This document shows positions 5,630-57,100 of a DNA stretch of 64,000 bases, piece after piece. A program made the translations under genes and the position numbers. The DNA comes from Tachypleus tridentatus. Lineage: Eukaryota > Arthropoda > Merostomata > Xiphosura > Limulidae. The notes beneath the pieces were generated by a model. The model was not told the DNA's origin, made no database searches, and saw only the letters and a list, made by a program, of their open reading frames with translations. The stretch is from positions 29,032,034-29,096,033 of the forward strand of contig NC_134829.1 in assembly GCF_004210375.1 (NCBI RefSeq), written 5' to 3'. How positions within the stretch are numbered: the first letter of the stretch is position 1; each line of letters opens with the position of its first letter.

Positions 5630-5901
5630 GGTATTAAGTTCTAAAAACAAATGGACAGTCAATATGTAGATCATTCTGACTGCGCTGTTATTAAGTTCTA
5701 AAACCAAATGGACAACCAATACGTTGATTATTGTGATTGTGATGTTATTAAGTTCTAAAACCAAATGGACAGTGAATACGTTAATTATTCTGACTGTGAT
5801 GTTATTAAGTTCTAAAACGAAATGGACAGTGAATACGTTAATTATTCTGACTGTGATGTTATTAAGTTCTAAAACCAAATGGACAGTCAATACGTTGATT
5901 A
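5630..5901. repeat. 57-bp minisatellite, left part of a split array
   Basis: Five copies of a 57-base unit start at about 5630, 5687, 5744, 5801 and 5858. Each contains aagttctaaaa and aaatggacag. The fifth stops after 44 bases, at the TTA of 5899-5901. Its missing 13 bases are found at 8464-8476, so the array was cut by the insertion of the element at 5902-8460. Because 57 is a multiple of three, the array is open in some frames, but those frames are not genes. Confidence 0.95.
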
Positions 5902-6066
5902 CACAGGTCAACAAATTTTTTCGAAATCTCAGTTGCATAAGATTTTTTTACTCATTCTTATCCTTTGTGACCTGCTAAATTCAAATATGAAAATGGTTCA
6001 GCTCTACATGCTCTAGTTTTAATGCAATTTTAAGTTTTTCATTCTAGCCGTTTGTGGTCAAATTAA

Positions 6067-6251
6067 CACGTTTCCTGCGATGCCTATATTGACAAACCGG
6101 CAACTGCTGCGATGCTCTTGTACATCTGACAGCTTCAGTGCTGCATGAGCTATGATAACGTGAGGTTGTCGTTACACTTGTCTCTATCCTGCAACTTAGT
6201 TAAAGGTAAGACAATAGTGGGACACTGGTGGGTCCCATCGCAGGAAACGTG
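6067..6251. mobile_element. piggyBac-like MITE nested in the leader of the larger transposon
   Basis: A perfect 16-base inverted repeat (cacgtttcctgcgatg at 6067, its complement ending at 6251) is flanked by TTAA on both sides (6063-6066 and 6252-6255). The 185-base interior has no coding capacity. TTAA duplication is the hallmark of piggyBac-type transposases. The ends differ from those of the piggyBac element at 17117-19242, so that element did not mobilise it. Confidence 0.85.
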
Positions 6252-6379
6252 TTAATTACTTACACGTTTATGTTATCAACAGAGATATTAAAATTGTTTA
6301 GATTTTGTGGTCAGATTAATTACTTACACGTTTATGTTATTAACAGAGATATTAAAATTGTTTTGATTTTGTTTCAGAT
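6252..6379. repeat. 64-bp direct duplication upstream of the transposon coding region
   Basis: Two units of 64 bases start at 6252 and 6316, both beginning ttaattacttacacgttta. They differ at few positions. The first unit supplies the right TTAA of the MITE. The array lies just before the start codon at 6386 and could be part of the element's own leader. Confidence 0.85.
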
Positions 6380-6385
6380 CTGATC

Positions 6386-8084
6386 ATGGCTACAAGGAGA
6401 CGTCAATGTGAGAACAAGCCGAACGCTTTCTGTTATATTTGTGGATGCTTCACGCTTATTCGTCAAAGGCGTAATATAACATCGTTTGTGAGGCGTGCTT
6501 ATAAAGCGTACTTTGGACTTGCTCTTGGTGACCAAGACAAGAAATGGGCTTCACATATTGTGTGTCATAACTGCGAGGAAATGCTGCGTGACTGGACAAA
6601 AGGGAAACGTAAGGGTTTACCTTTCGGAATTCCCATGACCTGGCAAGAACCGATGGACTGACTGCTATTTTTTGTCTGGTCAATACAAAGGGCATTGGCA
6701 AGAAAAACAGACACAAAATCTCATATCATAGTATCCCCTCAGCAATCCGACCTGCTCTGCACTCTGATGAGCTCCCAATCCCAGTTTTTAAAGAATTTCT
6801 TCCATCTGAAGATGTGGGTAGTGACCAAGAGCAAGAGACTGCTGGTGAAACTCAAGAAATACTTTCAGAATTTGGCGATCCTTCTTATGAGACCCCACAG
6901 TCATTAACTCCTCAACAGTTTAGCCAGCCAGAGTTGAATGACCTTGTGCGTGATTTGGGTCTCTCCAAAATGCAGCTGAAGTGTTAGCTTCCAGGATGCA
7001 AGAAAAGAATCAGCTGAACCATACAACTAAAGTGTCATACTTCTAAAATCGGGAGCAGGCTTTTGTGCCATTTTTTACAGAAGAGAATATGTTTGTTTAT
7101 TGTCATAATATCTCAGGTCTTCTCCAGGAATTAGAGATGCCAGTATACCATCCAAATGACTGGCGATTATTTCTAGATTGTTCTAAGCAAAGTTTGAAGT
7201 GCGTTCTACTTCATAATGACAATGTCTATGCAGCTGTTCCAATTGGACACTCTGTGTATTTACGAGAGGAATATAATGACATTAAGACTGTGATTGACCT
7301 ACTAAAATACCACGAGCACAACTGGACAATTGTGTGGACCTCAAAATAGTTAATTTCCTCCTAGGTCAACAAAGAGGATTTACAAAGTACCCTGCTATCT
7401 TTGCATGTGGGACAGCCGAGCTCGAGAAAAGCACTGGAACCAGAAGGAGTGGCCCATACGTGAGACTCTGAAGGCTGGTATGCCAAATATTGTCAACGAT
7501 CCAATTGTCAGTCGAGAAAGATCATATTTCCTCCTCTCCATATCAAGCTGGGCTTGATGAAACAGTTTATGAAGGCGTTGAATACTGACAGTGAATGCTT
7601 ACAACACATATTTTCTGTGCTCCCTGGTTTGTCCTTCGAGAAGATCAAGGCAGGTGTTTTTGATGAACCACAGATTCGTGCACTTGTGCGTGATCAAGAA
7701 TTTGCCAGAAAAATGAACGACACGGAAAGGACTGCATGGCTTCATTTATGGCGGTGATGGCAAACTTTCTCGGCAATAAAAAAAGCTGACAACTATGAAA
7801 CCCTTGCAGCGAATATGTTGTCAGCTTTTCGCGATCTTGGATGTAACATGAGTGTCGAACTCCATTACCTGTACAGTCATCTTGATAGATTCCCTGAGAA
7901 CCCAGGAGCCGTAAGTGACGAGCAAGGCAAGCGGTTCCATCAGGACCTCAAGACCATGGAAGAGCGTCACCAAGGGAGATGGGACAAACATATGATGGCA
8001 GATTACTGCTGGAGCATTAAACGAGAATGCCCTGAGACAGTCCACAAACGCAAGAACTACAAGCGGAAATTTATGCCTGAGTAG
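6386..8084 (+). pseudogene. Zinc-finger, DDE-like transposase of the 5902-8460 element, frame-broken
   Basis: The start is the ATG at 6386, reading MATRRRQCENKPNAFCYICG. Residues 16-19 (CYIC) and 61-64 (CHNC) form a zinc-binding amino end. Later blocks follow in order: a leucine-rich stretch near 6900-6990, DWRLFLDCSKQSLKCVLLHN at about 7155-7215, a second acidic position in the CVDLK-like region near 7335, a CxxC-bearing segment near 7385-7410, LGLMKQFMKALNTDSEC near 7545-7600, and SDEQGKRFHQDLK near 7910-7955, which would supply the glutamate. The last frame ends at 8084. D, D and E assignments are my inference from spacing and hydrophobic context. The reading passes through several frames, so this copy is inactive. 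I recall similar proteins in many invertebrates annotated only as uncharacterised. A second copy lies at 25632-26606. Confidence 0.75.
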
Positions 8085-8463
8085 ACTGCAATTGAGCTTT
8101 GCCTCCTCATAGTAGCAAGTGTCTTATCTACTAATCAGTTTTATACAAATAAATTGAATTATAACTTGATATAAAATTGAATTTATATAAACAACTTGAA
8201 TACATTTATACTATCTTGTATTTTCTTTTTTTATTACCCAGCTATATTAAAGAGTTTTATAACATATTTTATCACATATTTTTCATGATAGACTACGACG
8301 TCAATGTGATGATGACGAAATTTTGAGATTTTCAAATACCTTGATTGCAAAAAAAGTAGAGCACTGAGGAAAAAACTAACTTCAGATCTGAAATCAGGGC
8401 AAGAAATTATGTAATACCAAGTGTTTGATATAAATGCAACAAAAACTTTGTTGACCAGTGTTA

Positions 8464-8750
8464 TTGTGACTGTGATGTTAATAAGTTCTGAAACCAAATG
8501 GACAGTCAATACGTTGATTATTGTGACTGTGATGTTAATAAGTTCTGAAACCAAATGGACAGTCAATACGTTGATTATTGTGACTGTGATGCTAATAAGT
8601 TCTGAAACCAAATGGACAGTCAATACGTTGATTATTGTGACTGTGATGCTAATAAGTTCTGAAACCAAATGGACAGTCAATACGTTGATTATTGTGACTG
8701 TGATGTTAATAAGTTCTGACACCAAATGGACAGTCAATACGTTGATTATT
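8464..8750. repeat. 57-bp minisatellite, right part of the split array
   Basis: The first 13 bases complete the unit cut at 5901. Five further units start at 8477, 8534, 8591, 8648 and 8705, each near identical, with aaatggacagtcaatacgtt. The right units carry gttaataagttctgaaacc where the left carry gttattaagttctaaaacc, so the two halves belong to slightly different sub-arrays of one original array. Confidence 0.95.
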
Positions 8751-8799: not shown

Positions 8800-8991
8800 A
8801 ACTGTATAACGAAGACAGTGTTAAAACTTGACATAATGTAAGTCTATAACTGTATAACGAAGACAGTGTTAAAACTTTACATAATGTAAGTCTATAACTG
8901 TATAACGAAGACAGTGTTAAAACTTTACATAATGTAAGTCTATAACTGTATAACGAAGACCGTGTTAAAACTTTACATAATGTAAGTCTAT
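8800..8991. repeat. 48-bp tandem repeat, four copies
   Basis: Units start at 8800, 8848, 8896 and 8944, each beginning aactgtataacgaagac and ending aatgtaagtctat. They are nearly identical, suggesting recent amplification. The unit is unrelated to the 57-base one next to it. Confidence 0.95.
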
Positions 8992-13951: not shown

Positions 13952-14064
13952 GATTGTTAATATTACCTTTAACCCCAAATTATTACTTTTTATTCATTTA
14001 ACTTGGAAGTGTATTTAAATGAATAAAAAGTAATAATTTGGGGTTAAAGGTAATATTAACAATC
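13952..14064. repeat. Perfect 49-bp inverted repeat with 15-base loop
   Basis: Arm 13952-14000 begins gattgttaatattacc and ends ttattcattta. Arm 14016-14064 is its exact reverse complement. The loop is 14001-14015. Neither arm resembles a coding sequence or a known terminal repeat. See findings. Confidence 0.97.
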
Positions 14065-15352: not shown

Positions 15353-16510
15353 ACTACATGGCCAAAAGTATTTGGACACCCCTTCTAATTATTGGGTTCG
15401 GCTATTTTAGCTACACCCATTGCTAACAGGTACATAAAATCAAGCATACAGCATTGCAACCTCCGTAGACAAAATTAGTAGTAGAATGGGTCGTCCTGAA
15501 GAGTTTAATGACTTTCAAGGTGGCGCTGTCATTGGATGCCACCTTTCCAACAAATCAGTTCATCAAATTTCTGCCCTACTAGAGCTGCCCCAGTCAACTG
15601 TAAGTACTGTTGTTGTAAAGTGGGCATGTCTAGGAGCAACAACGGCTCAGTCACAAAGCGATAGGCCACACAAGCTCTCAGAACGAGACCCCCTAATACT
15701 GAAGCGCGTACCGTGTAAAAATTGTCTGTTCACAGTTGCGACACTCACTACCGAGTTTCAAACTGCTTCTGAAAGCAACGTCAGCACAAGAACTGTTGTT
15801 GGGAGTTTAATAAAATAGGTTTTCATAACCGAGCAGACGCACACAAGTCCAAGATCACCATGCGCAATGTCAAGCATTGGCTGGAGTGATGTAAAGCACA
15901 CTGTCGTGGGACTCTGAAGCAGTGAAATCGCGTTATCTGGAGTGGTGAATCATGCTTCACTATCTGGCAGTCTAACGGACGAATCTGGGTTTGACGGATG
16001 CTTGGAGAACGCTACCCGCTTGAATGTATAGTGCCAACTGTAAAGTTTTGTGGAGAAAGAATAAAGGTCTGGGGCTATTTGTCATGGTTTTGACTAGAGT
16101 AAAGGGAAATCTTAATGCTACAGCATACAATGACATTCTAGAAAATTGTGTGCTTCCAAGTTTGTGGCAGCAGTTTGGGGAAGGCCCTTTTTTGTTTCAG
16201 CATGACAATACCTATGTGCACAAAGCGAGGTCCATAAAAACATGGTTTGCCGAGGTAGGTGTGGAAGAACTTGACTGGCCTGCAGAGAACCCTGACCTCA
16301 ACCCCATCGAACACCTTTGGGATGAATTGGAACACCGACTGCAAACCATGCCTTCTCGCCCGACCTTACTAATGCTCTTGTGGCTGAATAGGGACGAATC
16401 CTCACAGCCATGTTCCAACCTAAGGAATGGGTTGCCTTTGGATGTTTGTAGAAGCAGTAAATTTAAGTGAGTTTATGAAAAGGCTTAAGTACATGAATGA
16501 TAAGGGCTGG
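15353..16510 (+). mobile_element. Decayed Tc1-like transposon, right end not found
   Basis: The left terminal repeat (catggccaaaagtatttgga) begins at about 15358. A transposase follows: MGRPEEFNDFQGGAVIGCHL with a helix-turn-helix at 15486-15640, then a block near 15940-16010 reading IWSGESCFTIWQSNGRIWV. There the usual catalytic Asp of SDES is Gly. Then 16024-16470 holds FLFQHDNTYVHKARS (second Asp) and NPDLNPIEHLWDELEHRLQ (Glu). Internal stops and frame shifts separate the blocks. No complementary right repeat is visible before 17 kb, so the 3' end is lost or too diverged. Confidence 0.88.
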
Positions 16511-17068: not shown

Positions 17069-17149
17069 AAAATTTGTTGAAATTGGATATTATGCATGTA
17101 TATATTTTAGGTTTAACCTATTCAGTGCCATAGACAAGATAACTCGTCC
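17069..17149 (+). repeat. Direct repeat spanning the left piggyBac junction
   Basis: About 80 bases here recur at 19875-19954: gaaatttgttgaaattggat, tatgcatgta and the ggtttaacctattcagtgcc junction. The repeat covers 48 bases outside the piggyBac element and about 33 bases of its left end. Confidence 0.85.
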
Positions 17150-19242
17150 AAGCTGATCAGTAACACAGTGCCACAGATGAGTTAATTTGTTCTCAATAAT
17201 ACCCAACTCCCAATGCTAAATGTCAGCACCATACATGCATATGACTTACTTACAAATTGTTTAACTTTTGATCCAAAATGGCGTCACGAAAAAGTTACAA
17301 AATGATGAAGCATTATAGTTTTATTTTGAACTTGGTTCGGAGTTTGAAGATTGCAATGGCAATTCAGAAGAGTCGGATTTTGAAGATTCTTTGAAAAATA
17401 TGGAAATACAAGGCTCAGATGTCAGTGAAGATGATAACTGGCCATCATCCAGCATTGGTAAACGGGCGATAACACCAGGGAGTAAACGTAAAATTGCAAG
17501 TCGTGGTAAGAACAGTTCCAAGAAAAAGTGCCCTAATGACAATGATTGGAATGCTGAATCTTTTGCTGCTCCAATTATAAACCCCTTCTCAGGAAATCAT
17601 GGTGTCCAGTACAATGATTTGAGCCAAGATTCAAAGCCCTTTCATTGTTTTCAAAAGTTCTTCCCTCCCACAATTGTTAACCATATTGTAACAGAGACCA
17701 GTAAATATGCAGAAACTGTGATGGCCCGCACTGATTTGGAGGAACATTCTAGAGCAAAATCATGGAAGCCAACTAATGAGAAGGAAATTTATGAATGTAT
17801 GGGTCTGATAATGATAATGGGCATAGAAAGAAAACCGACTATTTCCATGTACTTCAGTACTGACCCTTTGCTTGCCACACCCATATTTGGTCAGTGCATG
17901 TCAAAATACAGGTTTCTTTTGCTGCTATCGATGCTGCACTTTGCTGACAACACCAAGGAAAATATTGTTGATCAAGGACAGCACAAGATACAGCCCATTA
18001 TTGACTATTTACAGGAAATATTTAGAACCACATATGCACGAAACAAACATGTGTGTATTGATGAATCTTTAATACTGTGGAAGGGTTGACTGGGATTTCA
18101 ACAGTACATTCCATCTAAAAGGGCTAGGTTTGGAGTCAAAAGTTATGAACTATGTGAAAGTGTAACATGCTGTGTTTGGGACTTTTTTCATCTATACTGG
18201 GGCAGTACAGCACTAAAGAGGGCAGACAGGGCAAAAGTGTTGTATGCCCATTGATGGAACCATTGTTTGGACAAGATTATAAGCTCTATTTGGATCGTAT
18301 TTTTGCAAGTCCCACTCTAGCAAAGTCATTGCTTGATCATGACACCTATTTGTGTGAGTCAGTAATGAAAAATCGAATTGGGATGCCGAAATGTTTTGCA
18401 AATATCCAAAGGGGAGAAATGGAAGTGGCACAAAAAGACAGCATTGGTGTTCTTCATTGGAAGGATAAGAGGGACATTTTCATGTTGAATACAATACATG
18501 ATAATACCATGCAAAACACTGGAAAGATCAACCGTGCTACTGATGCAGCTATTGTAAAACCAAAATGTATCATTGATTACAATTGTTATATGGTTGACTC
18601 GTGTGACAGTGTGTTGCATGCTTATCCGAGTATGCGCAAGGCTGTCAAGCAGTACAAAAAAGTATTTTTTCACATGATGGATATAGCAGTGTACAATGCT
18701 TTGGTAGTTTACAAATCACTGGGAAACAACCTCTCTCCTGGAGTTTAGACTTGGTGTCATCTATACCCTGATTGAATATTACCACACCCAGCGCCCAAAA
18801 TCCACCAGAGGCCGGCCTTCCTTGGAAAACCCCCTTCGCCTCATAGAACATCACTTCCCAACACTAATTCTCCAAATAGAAAAGAATAAGTACCCAACTA
18901 GAAAGTGTAAAGTGTGCTCTGACAAATCCACGAGGAGGGAAAGCAGATATGAATGTATTAATTGCAAAGTGGCTCTTTGTGTTGACCCCTTCTTCAAAAC
19001 ATTTCACACAAAAGTGAATTATTAAATGTGTCATTATTTCAATATCCAAATATGACATTCTGTGCATTATTGTTTCATGTTTTGTACATATTTCTTTATT
19101 TTGTGTACTACTATAAGTTTGGCTTAGAGAAAAAATAGTATTTGCTGCTTATTTCCTTTGTTTTAAAAATTACTAAATTTTGCTGAAAAAAAACCTGGTG
19201 TAGGAGCTGCCATAGCAGCTGAAATACTTGGCAGTCAACAGG
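17117..19242 (+). mobile_element. piggyBac transposon, 2.1 kb, both ends present
   Basis: TTAA lies on each side (17113-17116 and 19243-19246). The left end reads cctattcagtgccatag and the right end, complemented, reads cctgttgactgccaag, an imperfect inverted repeat. Near each end are sub-terminal copies of the gtgcca/tggca motif. The transposase fills most of the interior. Confidence 0.9.
17331..19025 (+). pseudogene. piggyBac (PGBD-like) transposase, broken
   Basis: The amino part is acidic (SEESDFEDSLKNMEI) and lysine-rich. A DDE_Tnp_1_7-type core runs from about 17560. The first catalytic Asp is in HVCIDESLILWKG at about 18048-18086. LDRIFASPTL near 18290-18320 holds the second Asp. DYNCYMVDSCDSVLHAYP near 18570-18630 corresponds to the usual NKYMGGVDKSD region with changed residues. 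The carboxyl end has the cysteine-rich CxxC finger (CKVCSDKS, YECINCKVALC) near 18908-18995. An internal stop follows ILWKG at 18087, and the reading frame changes after it and again after about 18720. The family is usually near 550-600 residues, so nearly the whole protein is represented. Confidence 0.92.
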
Positions 19243-19654
19243 TTAAATGCAGTTGCAAGAATACTGATAGAGGGGGCAAGAGTTGAATGTTAAAGTCACA
19301 AATTAACAGTAGAAGATCCAGAAACCCTAAAATATGTTACATTAGACGTAGCAGAATTGAAACAGGTATGAATAAGTTTTACTTTGCCTGAGAATACATC
19401 TGTTTACTACTCAGTAAATACAAATAAAAAATTAATTTTTGTTTGAATATTGTAGCAATTTAATGTTAAAGTGTAAGAAAGTAAGTTTTTTGTTGGGTTC
19501 ACTCACCATCATAGTTTTATTGATGTTTTACAAAATGAATTAAATAAAAATAAAAGTTAAGTCATTTCCACTATTCAGAATTTTCTTAAGCTCTTAGAGA
19601 AGGAATAGAGTATTAAACAGTCCAAACTTGAACTTGTTCACATATTTAAATGAT

Positions 19655-19756
19655 TAAAATCTACAAATGAACATTCTATAACACACAATTAGAATCAATA
19701 CTTTAAATAAAGATTTTAATTGTGTGTTATAACACATTGTTCATTTGTGAGTTTTA
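19655..19756. repeat. Imperfect inverted repeat, arms near 40 bases
   Basis: Arm 19655-19691 (taaaatctacaaatgaacat through acacacaatta) pairs with 19717-19756 (taattgtgtgttataacaca through gagtttta) with a few mismatches and a small insertion. The loop is about 25 bases. Confidence 0.85.
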
Positions 19757-19874
19757 GTATTTTAAGAAGAGTATTTTTTTGTTTTGTTTTTGTTCGATGT
19801 ACAAGACTTTAACAGTTATTGGTCAGTTTATTTCATAATTAATATTTAATTATTTACTTTTGAGAATGACAGTT

Positions 19875-42300: not shown

Positions 42301-45300
42301 AACATCTAGACTAGTTTTGGAATAGCTTTCATGAAAAGTTAAATTACTGCAGTATAGATTACCTGATTTTAATTAATATCAATGTGAAACTTCACAAAGT
42401 TGTTCTTGTACATCTGGTAACTTTCACAGAAGTTGGTTAAAATGTGATCATTATTTGTATATCTTCAAAATTGTCGTGAGACATCTATCAAATTTTTAAA
42501 CAATTGTGTTTAAACCTCACTACACAGTATATACAACAGTTCAAGAGTATTCGTAAGTTTCAAGCTACATGAGGATTTACTGAACTGGGCATGTAATTGC
42601 TATATTGATGACTTGTAGATTCTGACCTTAAACATCAAAAGCCTACTTTTGTTTAGTATCACTATTTAGATATATGTGTTAGTTGTTATTGGTATCTTTC
42701 AACGTACTGAACATGTTAGATATATATATGCTGAAGCTAATTGTTATGGCCCAAAGTATTGTTAACAGTGAGGGTACCCAATTGATTAAAAAGTGCATTT
42801 TAGTTGGACAATGAAGAACCCATTTTTTAGAAAAAAGCTTTGAGATAGATTGACTGGCTAATAAAAAAGTCTATTATAAATGTACAACATTTTGATAAGG
42901 TTTGTTATCCTCGGGTATTCTAGTTTTTACAAGACTAAACTTACTTGGCACATTAAACTTGATTGTTAGGATTAAGTTTTGTTCTATGTACATAGATTGT
43001 ATTAGTTGAAAGTTTATATTGATTTATTAATTCTCTTTGTCCATTTAGTTAGTTTAATTTCTTTGAGGATGAACTTGTTCCTTTTAGAACAAACCATTTA
43101 AGTCAGATTGAAAGCAGAAAAATTAAGTTGACTTTAACATGTTGATATTGAAGATTAAGGATGTTAAATGCCATTGTCTTGAAGTTATAAGCATCAACCC
43201 TCTCACAAAGATTAGTTTTCAGTGTCAAAGAAGTTAGAATTTTGTTACTGTGCTGCTGATGTGAAGTGTCACAGCTCTTGCAGAGATTAGTTTTTGAGGT
43301 AAGAAATGTTAAGAATGTCATTGTCCTGAACTATGAAACATCAAAATTACCACAATAGTTTTCACAATTAAAGTAGTTAAGTGTGATGTTCTCATGGAAG
43401 TTGTAGACATCAAAACTGTCTCAGATAAGTTTGCAAAATAAAAGAACTGTCACAGTTATTGAGCTATAAACACAACCTGCTAGAATCTTAACTAATCCAA
43501 ACATCTTGTAGTTGTTGGTTCGTTTCTCACGTAAGAAGTGAACGATAAGTCAAGGAGTCACAAATAAAACAAGTTAAAATGCAAAAAGGTCAATATACAA
43601 GTAATCAGATATCCATAGGTCACACATTCCTGAAAAACTTAAACCTTCCTTGACATGATAGTTAGGTATCCAAGTCATAGTTATATTTAGTGTGAAAGTG
43701 ACTAATTTTTAAAAAAGCCATACTAATATGTTGAGGTTTATAATAAGTTTTCTAATATATTCTAGAAAGTTTTAAACAAAAATTCTTACTTTCCTTGTTT
43801 TGATGTTTTATACCAGTTATTGATTTCATATAATTGAGATATGACTTTTCCAGATCATTTAACTCTCTCAAATATTGTTTTATTTAACTACCAGAAGTTA
43901 GCATTGTTTAATAAGTTTTGAATTTAATATTTCATTATTTTACTAACTGATGACAGACAGAAATTTTACATTTGGTAAGAGTTTTGATCAACAGTGTACC
44001 AGCTAAAACTCATTTATGGCAATATAAAAAACTTTACATATATTGTTGTATGTGCAATTAAAATGGTGTCATTAAGCAGCTTGTCAATAAAACATGAAGC
44101 CCATATTTAAGCAACTGTTAAAGGAAAACAAAATGAATACATCAGGTTAGTAAATGTAAGAAATTTTTTTAAAATGGTGTTTGATGTGATCTTTTTTTGC
44201 TAATAGTTTTTTGTCCAATTTTATGATTTTTATTTTATTTAAAACCTATTCAAATATTAGTAAATTGAGTTTCTTATCCAATGTAGAGCTGTAATACTCT
44301 TTTGATAACAAATCAATGTATCCAAAATGTGTAGAAAAAATATTAATAATTAAACATAGTTCTGTTATCACTTCTTATGTTGATCAGTTTTTGTGTATGT
44401 TATGTGTTGTATCATTCAGTTTTGAGCATGAAATGGTTTGAGAAATTTGATTTGAAGGTGAATGAGTTTGTTCCAAAAACTTCAAGGTTACTTATAATAA
44501 TTATAATGTTTTTATTTTAACTCTGAAAATTCTGTGACTACTGTGCTCTTCTTGTAACAATATTTATGTTGCTTGCATCACAAGGAACACCTTTAAATGT
44601 GTGATAACAGTGTCTTTACATAAATGTGTGATAACATCTGTAAATTGTTAGAAATAAGAAAACAAAGCCTTGCTCATTCTCTTGTTTTGTAAGATATGAA
44701 TCAGATGTTAATCTCTGACCAAGAACTATAGCTTAAACACTAAGTTTTCTCTCTTCTCAGACTCCTAAACCAATTCATGTTCACTATTATTGCACTTAAT
44801 TTTTTTTTTTATTTTAACAGAAATCCTGGGACATTGCTCTTGCACCCCTCAAACAGGTCCCCATGAACCTCTTTATAATGTACATGGCAGGAAATTCAAT
44901 CTCTATATTTCCAATCATGATGGTGGGAATGTTATTCCTTCGCCCAGTGAAAGCACTGATTACGATACAGTCTAGTATGTATTTTTACTGACAGAAATTG
45001 TGAAACAGTGTAAGATTGTTTTGTTTTTTCAAACTGATACTAAGTTAACTAGTTTGTTTGTTTTTAATTTCAAATATTTTGCTTCCTTTAAAGTTTACAT
45101 TTTGTTAGTTGTGCTGTTTCCCTATTTATTTGTTGGTGTTAATATGGAGAAGCATGTTTAGTTTGTCACCTGGTCATTGGAAGTTGTTTCAAAGTACAGG
45201 AAGTGTTCTGTTTAACCTCTCATCCAGTGGGCTTGTAACATGTTTTGTAGAGATATATGAATTACATTTAATAAGATTATATCTCAGGATGGGTATTAAC

Positions 45301-48300
45301 ACTTTAATTAATAAAGCAGAGAACAGTGTTTCAACTTAAGAAGATTGAAACATTGTTCTCTGCTTTATTAATAAAAGTGTTAATACCCATACCACCCATC
45401 CTGAGATATATTTTTACTTTAAGTGGGTTTCTTGTCATCACAAATTTAATAAAATTCCTGATATTAAGATCATATAATTTGATTATAAGTCACTGACAGT
45501 TTTAATGTTGTATGTTCAAGGGAACTACATAATGTTTCGAATGAACACTATCTTAGATATATGTTCAAGTGGCGAACATCATGTTACAACTGTAGGTTAC
45601 AGATGTAGGTTCAAGGAAGCTGAATGATATTTTAACTGTACATTAGTTCAGATTCTGTATGTTTAAATCAGTTGTACTCTTTCAACTTTTCTCTAATTTA
45701 GATGTTTTATGTTTAACTTTTAAAACCCATAATGTTTTGCATGAGTTATTATGATGTCCTAATAATTATCACCATACCTTATAAAATTTTCATTCTGGTT
45801 ATAAAAATATGGATAATAACATGGCTTTCAGCCTAAAATACATAAATGTTTTTGGATGCTGTCACATTTCTATAAATAAATCGAGATATTCAAGTTGGAT
45901 GTTTGTAGCATTTGCTCGGATGTATGGAGTTAGGTGAGCTTCACTTTTTGAACTGTTTAATAGCTCAATTTCTTTAAACAGTGGTTTCAAATGAGCTAAG
46001 TTGGGTTTCACTTATTCTAATTCACATATCTGGCATGTCTAGATTAGGATTGGAAGAGATTCTTAATATTAATTATTCTGATAAAATCCAACAAAATTAC
46101 ATTGCTATTTTTTATATTATATTTATTTATCTTTTCTATTTTTTCATTTTGTCACCAGCCTTTAAACTCATAGAAGGGAGCCAAGCTTTCTTCCAAAAAA
46201 GTTGTGTATCTATTTGGAAATCTAGTTTGTTTAGCAGTTGCATTGTACAAATGTTCTTCGATGGGTTTGTTACCTACACATGCATCAGACTGGTTAGACT
46301 TTGTGGAGCCACAGCAGGTATGATAGTAACAACAAAAACTGTAAACTTGTCTTCTGTAGTTTAGTTTTCATGTTAATTTTGTGTAAAACATGAACTTTAG
46401 GCAGAAAACCAAAACATTATTTAAAATTGGACTAAGTGGTTCTGGGTAAATTAAGTCAGAAAGAAAAAAAATATAATTGGCATTAATTTTTAGTTTTATT
46501 TATGTGTCCTCTTTGGGCAATAGCAATACAGCTCCCCCCTGCCTTGTAAAACCTTCAACATTCTGGTGATAAAAATATGGCTCAAACTTTTGAAGAGGTT
46601 AAATTATACACTTGTTATTCTAGGACCTGAAAGAGAACTTTTTCTCTATTACAGAATATATTTTCATTTTTTGGAACCAAATTGTTATTAAACTCAGGCA
46701 AATTTTATTTATGTTGTAATGGTGTCATTATTCTAAATTTTCTAAAGGAAGGTTGTTTTCTTTTCCTTCATACATGAAACTTGTAAATAACTGACTGCTC
46801 ACACCATTTTCCTCTAAACATGAACTCGATATATGCCTGATTTCTTACACCATTTTCCTCAATATCTGAACACTGTACATACCCAAATACTTATACCATA
46901 TTCTTTGCCTGAAGCCTGTACATGTCTGATTACCTGTACAGTTTCTTTCTTTGCCTGAAGCCTGTACATGCCTATGCCATGGCTAGCATCAACTGTACTC
47001 TTTCATGTTAGCGTCATTTCAAACATTTTCAGCTCATGATCAGTGTATGTTGAAATGCTCTCTAATGCTATAAAGTAAAAGTGTTGTCACCAAAGAGTAT
47101 TACAAATTTAGATTTTTTGTGCACCACTTTAAACTTTGCTGGTCACCACGTATTACATTAGATCCCTGGAGTTAGCAAGTTTTTCCAAAACTGCTCCTGA
47201 AACTTAGATGGTTGTTTCAGTCAAGGAGAAACAGAAGTTAAGTTTCTTAAATGTTTTTTATTTGTTGTTCATTGCAGTTAGGCTATCTTCACTGCATCCA
47301 CCAAGATGTTTCAAAGTTAGCCATAATTTAATAATAGTGCTGTTGTTGCTAGATGCTAGAAGACTGAAAATAAATAAAGCTAGAAAAGTTGTTTTTTTTC
47401 TGATTGTGTTTCAGCTAGAGAAGTTGTCTTCTTATTGTGTTCCAACAATTCTGAGCTGATTTGTGTGCCATTGTCTGATTGTCGTCAAGATATTTTACTA
47501 TTTGTAGTAATAAACTTTGAGAAGATTATGCTTCTGACTTGTATCATTATTAACAGTTTTAAAACACATCCAAACTGTTTTGTCAATAACCCTGTGCTAG
47601 AGTATCAGTAATGGTACCTAGCTGACCCACCATTTCAATGCACAGGAAAGACAGAGATGTGAGAACCAAATTCCACTCCCTCCTCCTCTTACAGACAGAT
47701 CTCAGTTCTGTGGGATTCCTAAGAATATGTATTACATTTGGTGACAGTATTTCACTAGTTGTAAGCAGAGACAGATGTACACTTTCATCAAATAATGATT
47801 TAGGTGGTGGGTTCATTAAACATAACAGTTCTGTCTTACTATAAATAATTCCTTTTTTTTAATCAACCTAAACTGCCTGTTTGTATATAATTTGAATAAG
47901 TACCATTAGTATGGTTTAAAATGGTCAGTTTTATCTTCTCTGTTTCGAATCTTTCACAGGAAAATGTTAATTGCCATATCAAGTCAAACAGAAAATATAA
48001 TTTTCATTGAATACTAGAACAGTTAGGCCCAGCATGTCCTGGTGGTTAAGGCACTTGAATGCTAATCTGAGGGTTACAGGCTCGAATCCCCGTCACACCA
48101 AACGTGCTCACCTTTTCAGCCATGGGGGCGTTATAATGTATGGTCAATCCCACTATTCATTGGTAAAAGAGTAGCCCAAGAGTTGGTGATGACTAGCTGT
48201 CTTCTCTCTAGTCTTACACTGCTAAATTAGGGACAGCTAGCATAGATAGCCCTTGTGTAGCTTTACATGAAATTCAAAAACAAAACAAAAAATAAACTAG

Positions 48301-51101: not shown

Positions 51102-51601
51102 NNNNNNNNNNNNNNNNNNNNNNNNNNNNNNNNNNNNNNNNNNNNNNNNNNNNNNNNNNNNNNNNNNNNNNNNNNNNNNNNNNNNNNNNNNNNNNNNNNN
51201 NNNNNNNNNNNNNNNNNNNNNNNNNNNNNNNNNNNNNNNNNNNNNNNNNNNNNNNNNNNNNNNNNNNNNNNNNNNNNNNNNNNNNNNNNNNNNNNNNNNN
51301 NNNNNNNNNNNNNNNNNNNNNNNNNNNNNNNNNNNNNNNNNNNNNNNNNNNNNNNNNNNNNNNNNNNNNNNNNNNNNNNNNNNNNNNNNNNNNNNNNNNN
51401 NNNNNNNNNNNNNNNNNNNNNNNNNNNNNNNNNNNNNNNNNNNNNNNNNNNNNNNNNNNNNNNNNNNNNNNNNNNNNNNNNNNNNNNNNNNNNNNNNNNN
51501 NNNNNNNNNNNNNNNNNNNNNNNNNNNNNNNNNNNNNNNNNNNNNNNNNNNNNNNNNNNNNNNNNNNNNNNNNNNNNNNNNNNNNNNNNNNNNNNNNNNN
51601 N
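51102..51601. other. Assembly gap of 500 unknown bases
   Basis: Exactly 500 N. The round number suggests a placeholder of unknown true length. It begins at a SINE end, a typical place for an assembly break. Confidence 0.99.
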
Positions 51602-54198: not shown

Positions 54199-57100
54199 CT
54201 ATTTCAGGAATAAATGCTTTTAGCTAATTTCCTCTTAATTTTGTTTAAATTTAAAATTCATAATTATGACCATCAATTTAAGAAAGTGGTAAATTCATTT
54301 ATACTTCAAATCATTTCATGTTAAATGTGCTTGACTTAGAAATATATACAAAAATACAGCATGAAGAATTCTTAACATATAAAAATCCAAAATTCCTGCA
54401 AGTTTCAGCAGAACTTAGAAGAGGGAACAAGTTTTAGTTGTTGCATAGAAAGGCAATTAGCTTCATAGATGGTGTGCAATCTAAATTGAAAGTGCTAAAA
54501 CAAACATGACATAAGAGATGAAATAAAGTTTCCAATTCACAGGAATCAACAAGGGAAGATAACAGAACAAATTAAACAATAATTATAAAACTAAAAATAT
54601 ACATAATAATGATGTTGTGAATATATGTACAGTAATATTCATTCACTGGATCATGAAAATCTTTAATGTGAACATTTTGTCAGTAATTTAAGCCCTACTA
54701 CAGAAATACTTAGATTTTATTTCTTGATAACATATGTAATACAAACAAACACCATGTCTCAACATTTATGATTACAACTAAAAATCTATGGAAGTGACAA
54801 ATCTGCTAATATGATGATTCCATATTAAATGCATTAATATTAGATTAAAACAAATAAACAAAAGTGCTACACAATGAAAAAACATTTTACATGACATTTT
54901 CTCATATTATTTAGAATTATACATACAGTAGATATAATTTTATATTCTCTAACTTCATGAACAGTTTGAAACTTTTAGTAAAAACCTAAAGCAGAGAGTA
55001 ATAAGTTCAAATAGATAACCTATTTTAACTATTTTTAGCATTAGTTTAAAAACATTGACTGTACTTTCAACATTCATATCTAGCTTACACTACAAAGGAC
55101 CACAAAATGGGGAAAAATAAGGAAAAATAGCATTCAAATTAATTAAAACACATGTCTATAGCAAAAATTATTATGATTTGCAATGCTTAAGGCAGAAGTC
55201 CTTTGTAAGGCAGTTTAAATCGTGTTACATAGAAAAATTGATTAGACAGAATCTTTGAAAGGTTAGAATACAAACATTCTAAATTATGTACACACCGTGT
55301 GGAGCACTTTAACAAAAACATTGTTAGAAGAAACACTGTTGAAGTGTTTCTACAAACAGTCTTAAAAATGGAATCCAGTTACTATCACTTTAATATTTGT
55401 TTTTTGTTTTCAACATGCAACAATGTTCCTTCTTACAATATTTTTATTAATGTGCTTCATACAGTATGCACGCAATATTGAATTTCTTTATGTTCTTACC
55501 CTTCAATGATTCTGTCCAAGCCTTTTTCCTATGTAACATGGTTTAAACTGCCTAATGTAGGGTTTCTGCCTGAAACTTTGCAAACAAAATTTTTGTTATG
55601 GATACAAATTTCAGTAATTTTGAACACTGGTTTTTCATGCTCAACTTACCACTAAAGGAATTTGGAGAAGAGAAGACAACTCCTCCATATCTCCCACAGA
55701 GGTCTGAGGGTGTACCTTCATAACACAGAGAAAACAAAGGATCTTCATGTTTATTGTCAGTGGTGTAAACTGATAAATATGTACATACAAATTTATTTCA
55801 TATTTTTCCACCCACTCTAATATCAGATAACCACTCCTTATCATTATGTTCATTCAGTAAGTGAAACTTGTAATCAATAATTTTATAAGTAATGCTTTTT
55901 TTATACACAAGCAATCCAAATATTTAAGTTAAAAGTAATGCATAGAATATCTTATGTGATGATTTAATGGTACTTGTGGTAACCAAAGTTACATGAATTG
56001 TAAATCGTTAAACACAAATTAAACATGCAAATCAAAACAAAATTTACAGCATGTAGCAGATACATAAAATATAAAACTTATCATAACTACACAAAATAAA
56101 CTCGTTAAATGGCTTCACTGTTAATGTGTTTACAGTCAGTTAAAAAACCAAAAAATTCAAATGCTCATCCAGCATAACAAGTTGTTTATGTTATGTCTAG
56201 TTACATGTAACAAATACCAACACAAAATAGTTGTTATTAAGTAGTTAACTTTCAACAGCTTCTTGGAAGAGTTTATATACAAAGAATGTTTAATATACAA
56301 CCAATGTAAAAAGGCAAACATTCTAAATCTACTATCACATACTTGGGTATTGATAAACATCAACAGCTTAGACTGTGACACACCCAATTTACCAATATAT
56401 GAAGCTGATATCTTCACCAATTACTTTTAAAATCTTAGGATATAAAACTACATCACATTCACCTAGTGCATGTCTGACAATGCTTGAACTGTTTGGACCC
56501 TAGGACTGTGACAATCGGGCTCAACTATCAACAGACTGGAAAATTGTTTATAAGATATCCTAGGCTCAAGACACTGTTCAGCATGTTTTAGGTGACTGTG
56601 GTGTGATTCTATACCCCAAAATCTTCAGAGTAATTGGTAAAACTGAAAATGAGGCTATACTGTAGGCAAAGGAAACACTTTTTGATTTTTCAAAATAAGC
56701 TGAGTTTAAACAAACAACAAAATACTACTGAATTTTTACTTACAATATAGGTATTTAACATCAAACTTTTACACTGCATTGCATAATTTATAGTAGGCTT
56801 CTCTTATTATAGCAGAGGCTCAGAACTGCATATAATAAACAACTCTCACACAAACTGTAAATGAACTATGCACACACTGCATTTTTGACATTGTGTGTGA
56901 CTTCTACAGTATTAAAACTTTTCGTCATTTGATGAGTGTGACTCCAGTATGCTTGCAATTCCCAGAACAGTTCATATGAAAAACATTCAGTAAAGACTAA
57001 ACCTGTTTCATAATAAACACTTTTAAGATATCTGTAAATGTATGTTTAACAAGCAACACAGAGTGAAGAAACTTGGGTTGTCATATTCTCTATTTCTTAA

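Follow-up and report, generated by a model that had tools for sequence, protein, structure and literature searches.

The 64,000-nt stretch of Tachypleus tridentatus DNA analysed here (the window) contains a 57-bp minisatellite whose array is interrupted by a whole DNA transposon with an exact 3-bp target site duplication. The array lies in two parts, 5632–5901 to the left and 8461–8750 to the right, and between them the element occupies 5902–8460 on the forward strand (2,559 bp); it is a dead copy, very probably of Chapaev3 type. Its borders are formed by 20-bp terminal inverted repeats, the left one on the forward strand (5902–5921) and the right one on the reverse strand (8441–8460), and outside these stand the left (5899–5901) and right (8461–8463) copies of the TTA target site duplication. 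Within the element, a nested 185-bp insert (6067–6251) and a 64-bp direct tandem duplication (6252–6379) in the 5′ non-coding part are followed by the remains of a transposase gene on the forward strand (6386–8081). The array, the TTA copies, the nested insert and the tandem duplication carry no strand assignment.

In a common register, the left part of the array ends in a split unit of 44 nt (5858–5901) that closes with TTA, and the right part opens with a second TTA followed by the other 13 nt of that unit (8464–8476). The rejoined 57-bp unit differs from the preceding unit at 4 of 57 positions and from the following unit at 2 of 57, and the 57-bp phase is kept across the joined flanks of the element. 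Taken from the interrupted unit (one copy of the element), the empty site reads GATTATTG, that is, A-TTA-T. A preliminary description of this DNA had the left array halting after 44 of 57 bases at TTA, and a second TTA on the right leading into the remaining 13 bases of the interrupted unit; both observations were recovered at exactly these coordinates. Its further claim, that the array fixes the element ends as well as the 3-bp duplication, holds for the length of the duplication, which the array does set at 3 bp, but not for the exact position of the cut: it is the symmetry of the inverted ends that places the cut between TTA and CAC, as opposed to one to three bases off.

PMC4079192 describes a TWA duplication between A and T in all Chapaev3 elements examined, with confirmation from paralogous empty sites. 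ATWAT is found nine times in the joined 557-bp array, each time at the same phase of the repeat unit, and the most diverged outer unit is without it; across the whole window the motif is found at 416 of 63,996 positions. Under the published A-TWA-T rule each typical unit would thus offer a single site, and the element occupies such a site, its insertion being one of the nine.

The ends of the element read CACAGGTCAACAAATTTTTT on the left and, on the other strand, CACTGGTCAACAAAGTTTTT on the right. Written as a CAC/GTG pair (CACAGGTCAACAAA / CACTGGTCAACAAA), they are identical at 18 of 20 positions and begin and end as CAC...GTG, in keeping with the CAC-type inverted ends proposed in the preliminary description. 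Identity runs at 13 of 14 and 18 of 20 bases and reaches 20 of 30 on extension, with only 2 of 10 bases matching beyond base 20. We scanned the window for CAC...GTG pairs spaced at 0.5–5 kb, allowing one mismatch in 14 and requiring identical 3-bp flanks, and the single pair returned was formed by the ends of the 5902–8460 element; 40 first-order Markov resamplings, scanned in this way, together produced one match. Exact matches to CACWGGTCAACAAA in the window are limited to the two element ends, and with up to three mismatches allowed the window holds 18 matches against 17.5 expected, which is chance level. No second copy of the element was found in the window. One match to CACWGGTCAACAAA with two mismatches lies inside the element (7360–7373), and the end core GGTCAACAAA is found there a third time, at 7364–7373, within the transposase gene, where it encodes GQQ. 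Roughly 0.011 internal occurrences of GGTCAACAAA are expected inside the element, a Markov estimate for a motif that was picked after the ends had been seen.

The nested insert, 185 bp long, is bounded by inverted ends of 16 bp that match perfectly (CACGTTTCCTGCGATG), with TTAA duplications on both sides. Its empty site is present within the element itself: the tandem copy near 6309 carries the flanking sequence without the insert (GGTCAGATTAATTAC), giving TTAA as the duplication. The insert shares this duplication, together with inverted ends, with the TTAA-duplicating MITEs of the piggyBac type, and we take the TTAA duplication to mark that kind of element; on this basis the insert is probably a piggyBac-type MITE. 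No other copy of it was found in the window, and the piggyBac-like element that the window also contains (described below) has different ends. Because the insert sits inside the larger element, unless it was carried along during that element's move, it is most simply the younger of the two, postdating the Chapaev3-type transposon.

The transposase gene begins with an ATG (6386) and closes just ahead of a TAG at 8082–8084; it covers 1,696 nt, or about 565 codons excluding the stop, and is composed of coding-like pieces in shifting frames on the forward strand. Followed by eye along these pieces, the frame changes five times or more and meets two in-frame stops, at 7044–7046 and 7755–7757, so the copy is dead and a whole protein cannot be made from it. 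The N-terminal part (6386–6658, forward strand) is cysteine-rich, with pairs of cysteines in CYIC (6431–6442) and CHNC (6563–6574), and is probably a zinc-binding domain that recognises the element ends; neither a Pfam model at cut-off nor a PDB sequence below E 0.75 matched it. This piece seems continuous with the next one, with no evident intron, and a splice-acceptor-like TTTCAG stands directly upstream of the ATG.

Further along the forward strand, three motifs follow one another in the order C(2)C, LH and H(4)H, with both the residues and the path through the broken frames chosen by eye. They are PCYLC (7390–7404), of a C(2)C class given in PMC4079192 and PMC12730594, and PPLHIK (7530–7547) and HYLYSH (7863–7880), of the LH and H(4)H classes given in the former. 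Three other forward-strand stretches, LFLDCSK (7167–7187), CVDLKIV (7331–7351) and SDEQGKRFHQD (7914–7946), are the probable sites of the first catalytic D, the second catalytic D and the last catalytic E, an alignment-free assignment in which about 19 residues separate the second D from the first C of the C(2)C motif.

Profile and structure searches returned no relative of the protein. Nine protein pieces matched no Pfam family at cut-off (best E 0.043), three pieces matched no PHROGs family below E 0.08, and searches of PDB sequences with the protein pieces gave nothing below E 0.1. An AlphaFold model of the C-terminal 187 residues, made without an alignment, is helical with a pLDDT of 61, and Foldseek searches with this model found no match below E 0.36 (viral) or E 1.1 (PDB); the model of a 94-residue piece that includes the proposed first D has a pLDDT of 46. 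We also looked for relatives in viral contigs, using protein pieces and degenerate motif patterns, and in prokaryote genomes, using patterns, and found none in viral contigs, prokaryote genomes, phages or plasmids. Some pattern matches to the protein pieces in viral contigs were dropped when tblastn gave no confirmation, and matches to 22 Klebsiella phage records were attributed to chance, the best 20 of the 22 having E values of 5 to 6. Since animal DNA is not expected in such collections, these empty viral, prokaryote and plasmid searches do not count against a common occurrence of the family in animals. The Tc1-like and piggyBac-like open reading frames in the same window are recognised by Pfam, and they are less broken than the transposase gene, which makes them a partial control only. 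The view in the preliminary description that the protein is uncharacterised thus stands in the sense that no Pfam model matches any of the nine pieces at cut-off, but not in the sense that the transposon is new, its group being already known.

These searches bear on a PIF/Harbinger-type origin, a reading for which the length of the duplication speaks. PIF/Harbinger duplications are often TWA, as is the duplication at this locus. PMC12730594 gives 3 bp as the canonical Harbinger duplication, and the element agrees with this. However, no Pfam Harbinger model was found at cut-off on the nine pieces, and, although a protein this decayed could escape such a model, the Tc1-like and piggyBac-like reading frames of the window are recognised. 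In addition, CAC...GTG ends and the set of C(2)C, LH and H(4)H motifs are given for Chapaev/CMC and Transib elements in PMC4079192 and PMC12730594, and we regard a PIF/Harbinger-type element as extremely unlikely.

The ends, target, motifs and size instead place the element, very probably, in the Chapaev3 group of the CMC assemblage, as a full-length DNA transposon of autonomous type that is now inactive. Chapaev3 is a sublineage of Chapaev in PMC12730594, and in PMC4411706 Chapaev and Chapaev3 are counted as clades of Transib. As described in PMC4079192, Chapaev transposons end in CAC/GTG, in general duplicate 3 to 4 bp, and carry the motifs C(2)C, LH and H(4)H. The element shares with Chapaev3 the CAC/GTG termini, the 3-bp TWA duplication between A and T (in one copy) and, as read by eye, all three motifs. 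The cysteine-rich start of its protein may correspond to the complex N-terminal zinc finger (Chapa) that PMC4411706 attributes to Chapaev3.

Size points in the same direction, as a weak test of membership, because the sizes in table 1 of PMC4079192 vary. Merrow and Garfield are the Chapaev3 elements that come closest to this one. In that table, the six Merrow and Garfield entries with both exons whole measure 2,092–2,455 bp and encode 554–562 aa (77–78 plus 477–484 aa by exon), whereas Conan_ET measures 1,865 bp and encodes 461 aa, and Conan_AC measures 3,363 bp. The element's approximately 565 codons compare with the 554–562 aa of Merrow and Garfield, and its 2,559 bp come down to about 2,306 bp once the nested insert, the TTAA copy made with it and the 64-bp duplication are subtracted. 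Merrow and Garfield are reported to have two exons, whereas most other Chapaev3 transposases are apparently single-exon (PMC4079192), and the element, with no evident intron, would fit the single-exon Chapaev3 transposases.

Placement in the CMC group had been proposed in the preliminary description, and the A-TWA-T target, the C(2)C – LH – H(4)H order and the coding length support that proposal and narrow it to Chapaev3. The neighbouring branches share part of this evidence. CAC..GTG ends with 3-bp duplications are consistent with EnSpm too, to go by PMC12730594, and the element could on these features belong to EnSpm/CACTA or another CMC branch outside Chapaev3; we consider this improbable, given that all examined Chapaev3 elements are described as following the A-TWA-T rule (PMC4079192), that the element matches Merrow and Garfield in coding length, and that none of the nine pieces matched a Pfam family, and thus a Pfam CACTA transposase family, at cut-off. 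The C(2)C and H(3-4)H motifs between the second D and the E are likewise common to EnSpm, Mirage, Chapaev, Transib and RAG1, according to PMC12730594. In the element, too, C(2)C and H(3-4)H motifs lie between the proposed second D and the proposed last E. Transib and RAG-like elements make 5-bp duplications, whereas that of the element is 3 bp, and the protein pieces gave no match to RAG1 in PDB searches or in Pfam.

The kinship with Chapaev3 is judged by features, not by sequence identity, and no family model matches the protein, as would also be the case for a distant, undescribed CMC/Transib branch sharing merely the order of the zinc motifs. Under that reading the agreement with Chapaev3 would have to extend to the ends, the target rule, the motif set and the coding length, all of which are found together here, and we judge it very unlikely. 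In a compound version, the protein would represent a separate undescribed CMC/Transib branch that gained the Chapaev3 target rule independently, and the internal GGTCAACAAA would serve as a third transposase site, acting in self-regulation or giving rise to short derivatives; we hold this combination to be quite improbable. With the Chapaev3 assignment, the locus is a neat single-locus example of an already published target rule and no new kind of element.

For a Chapaev3-type element, the history of the locus can be proposed as follows. An intact transposase would have bound the 20-bp inverted ends, and the element would have been excised by cut-and-paste chemistry at an active site of the DDE RNase-H type. 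It would then have been joined to a staggered 3-bp cut at A-TTA-T within one minisatellite unit, and repair of the gaps by the host would have left the two TTA copies. The copy as it stands has frame changes and stops, and the 185-bp TTAA-flanked insert lies nested in its 5′ non-coding part.

Given that the insertion divides the minisatellite, we compared the two halves of the array, using four whole units from the left and five from the right. The right half is far more homogeneous than the left: units differ on average at 5.3 positions within the left half and 1.0 within the right, and at 6.1 between left and right. Consistent differences between the halves fall at two columns, 20 (T on the left, A on the right) and 29 (A on the left, G on the right). 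Among the 126 ways of dividing the units into four and five, the division at the insertion comes out best, with a score of 3.47, but cutting the array after three units gives a slightly better score (3.78). The comparison is therefore suggestive only that the insertion may mark a border between two array types, and the better score of the other cut keeps this from being proof. The differences between the halves fit a stop in homogenisation once the array had been split and, likewise, do not prove it. Split loci of this kind could be used to time the homogenisation of minisatellites after they are cut in two. Thanks to the interrupted repeat, one copy in one assembly is enough to read off both the ends and the target duplication of a Chapaev3-type element, in agreement with the published A-TWA-T rule. 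The locus would also help to put a name to a protein that goes unrecognised by Pfam models here.

Several other features lie in the window. Shortly past the 57-bp array there is a second minisatellite, with four copies of a 48-bp unit (8800–8991). Remains of a Tc1-like element at 15486–16470 match the Sleeping Beauty HTH at E 1e-6, below the Pfam cut-off, and DDE_3 at E 1e-9, above it. No tRNA genes were found in the window by ARAGORN, and the assembly has a gap at 51102–51601, represented by a run of 500 N. The piggyBac-like element (17113–19246) has two open reading frames matching DDE_Tnp_1_7, at E 5e-34 and 1e-22. Its ends are tentative, having been chosen as the best of three TTAA pairs (11 of 14 matching) in a loose end-match scan; the other two pairs proved to be T-rich runs. 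A dispersed repeat of about 150–280 bp is present in at least nine places, with approximate starts, among the matches listed, at 2017, 10039, 14193, 30946, 34844, 37213, 48041, 50947 and 60204, and further pieces lie near 525 and 14603; by its size it is SINE-like, and it may resemble repeats of arthropod genomes. Four segments, at 55155–55602, 13952–14064, 45272–45416 and 19646–19765, match their own reverse complements; they are palindromic repeats and possibly foldback elements.
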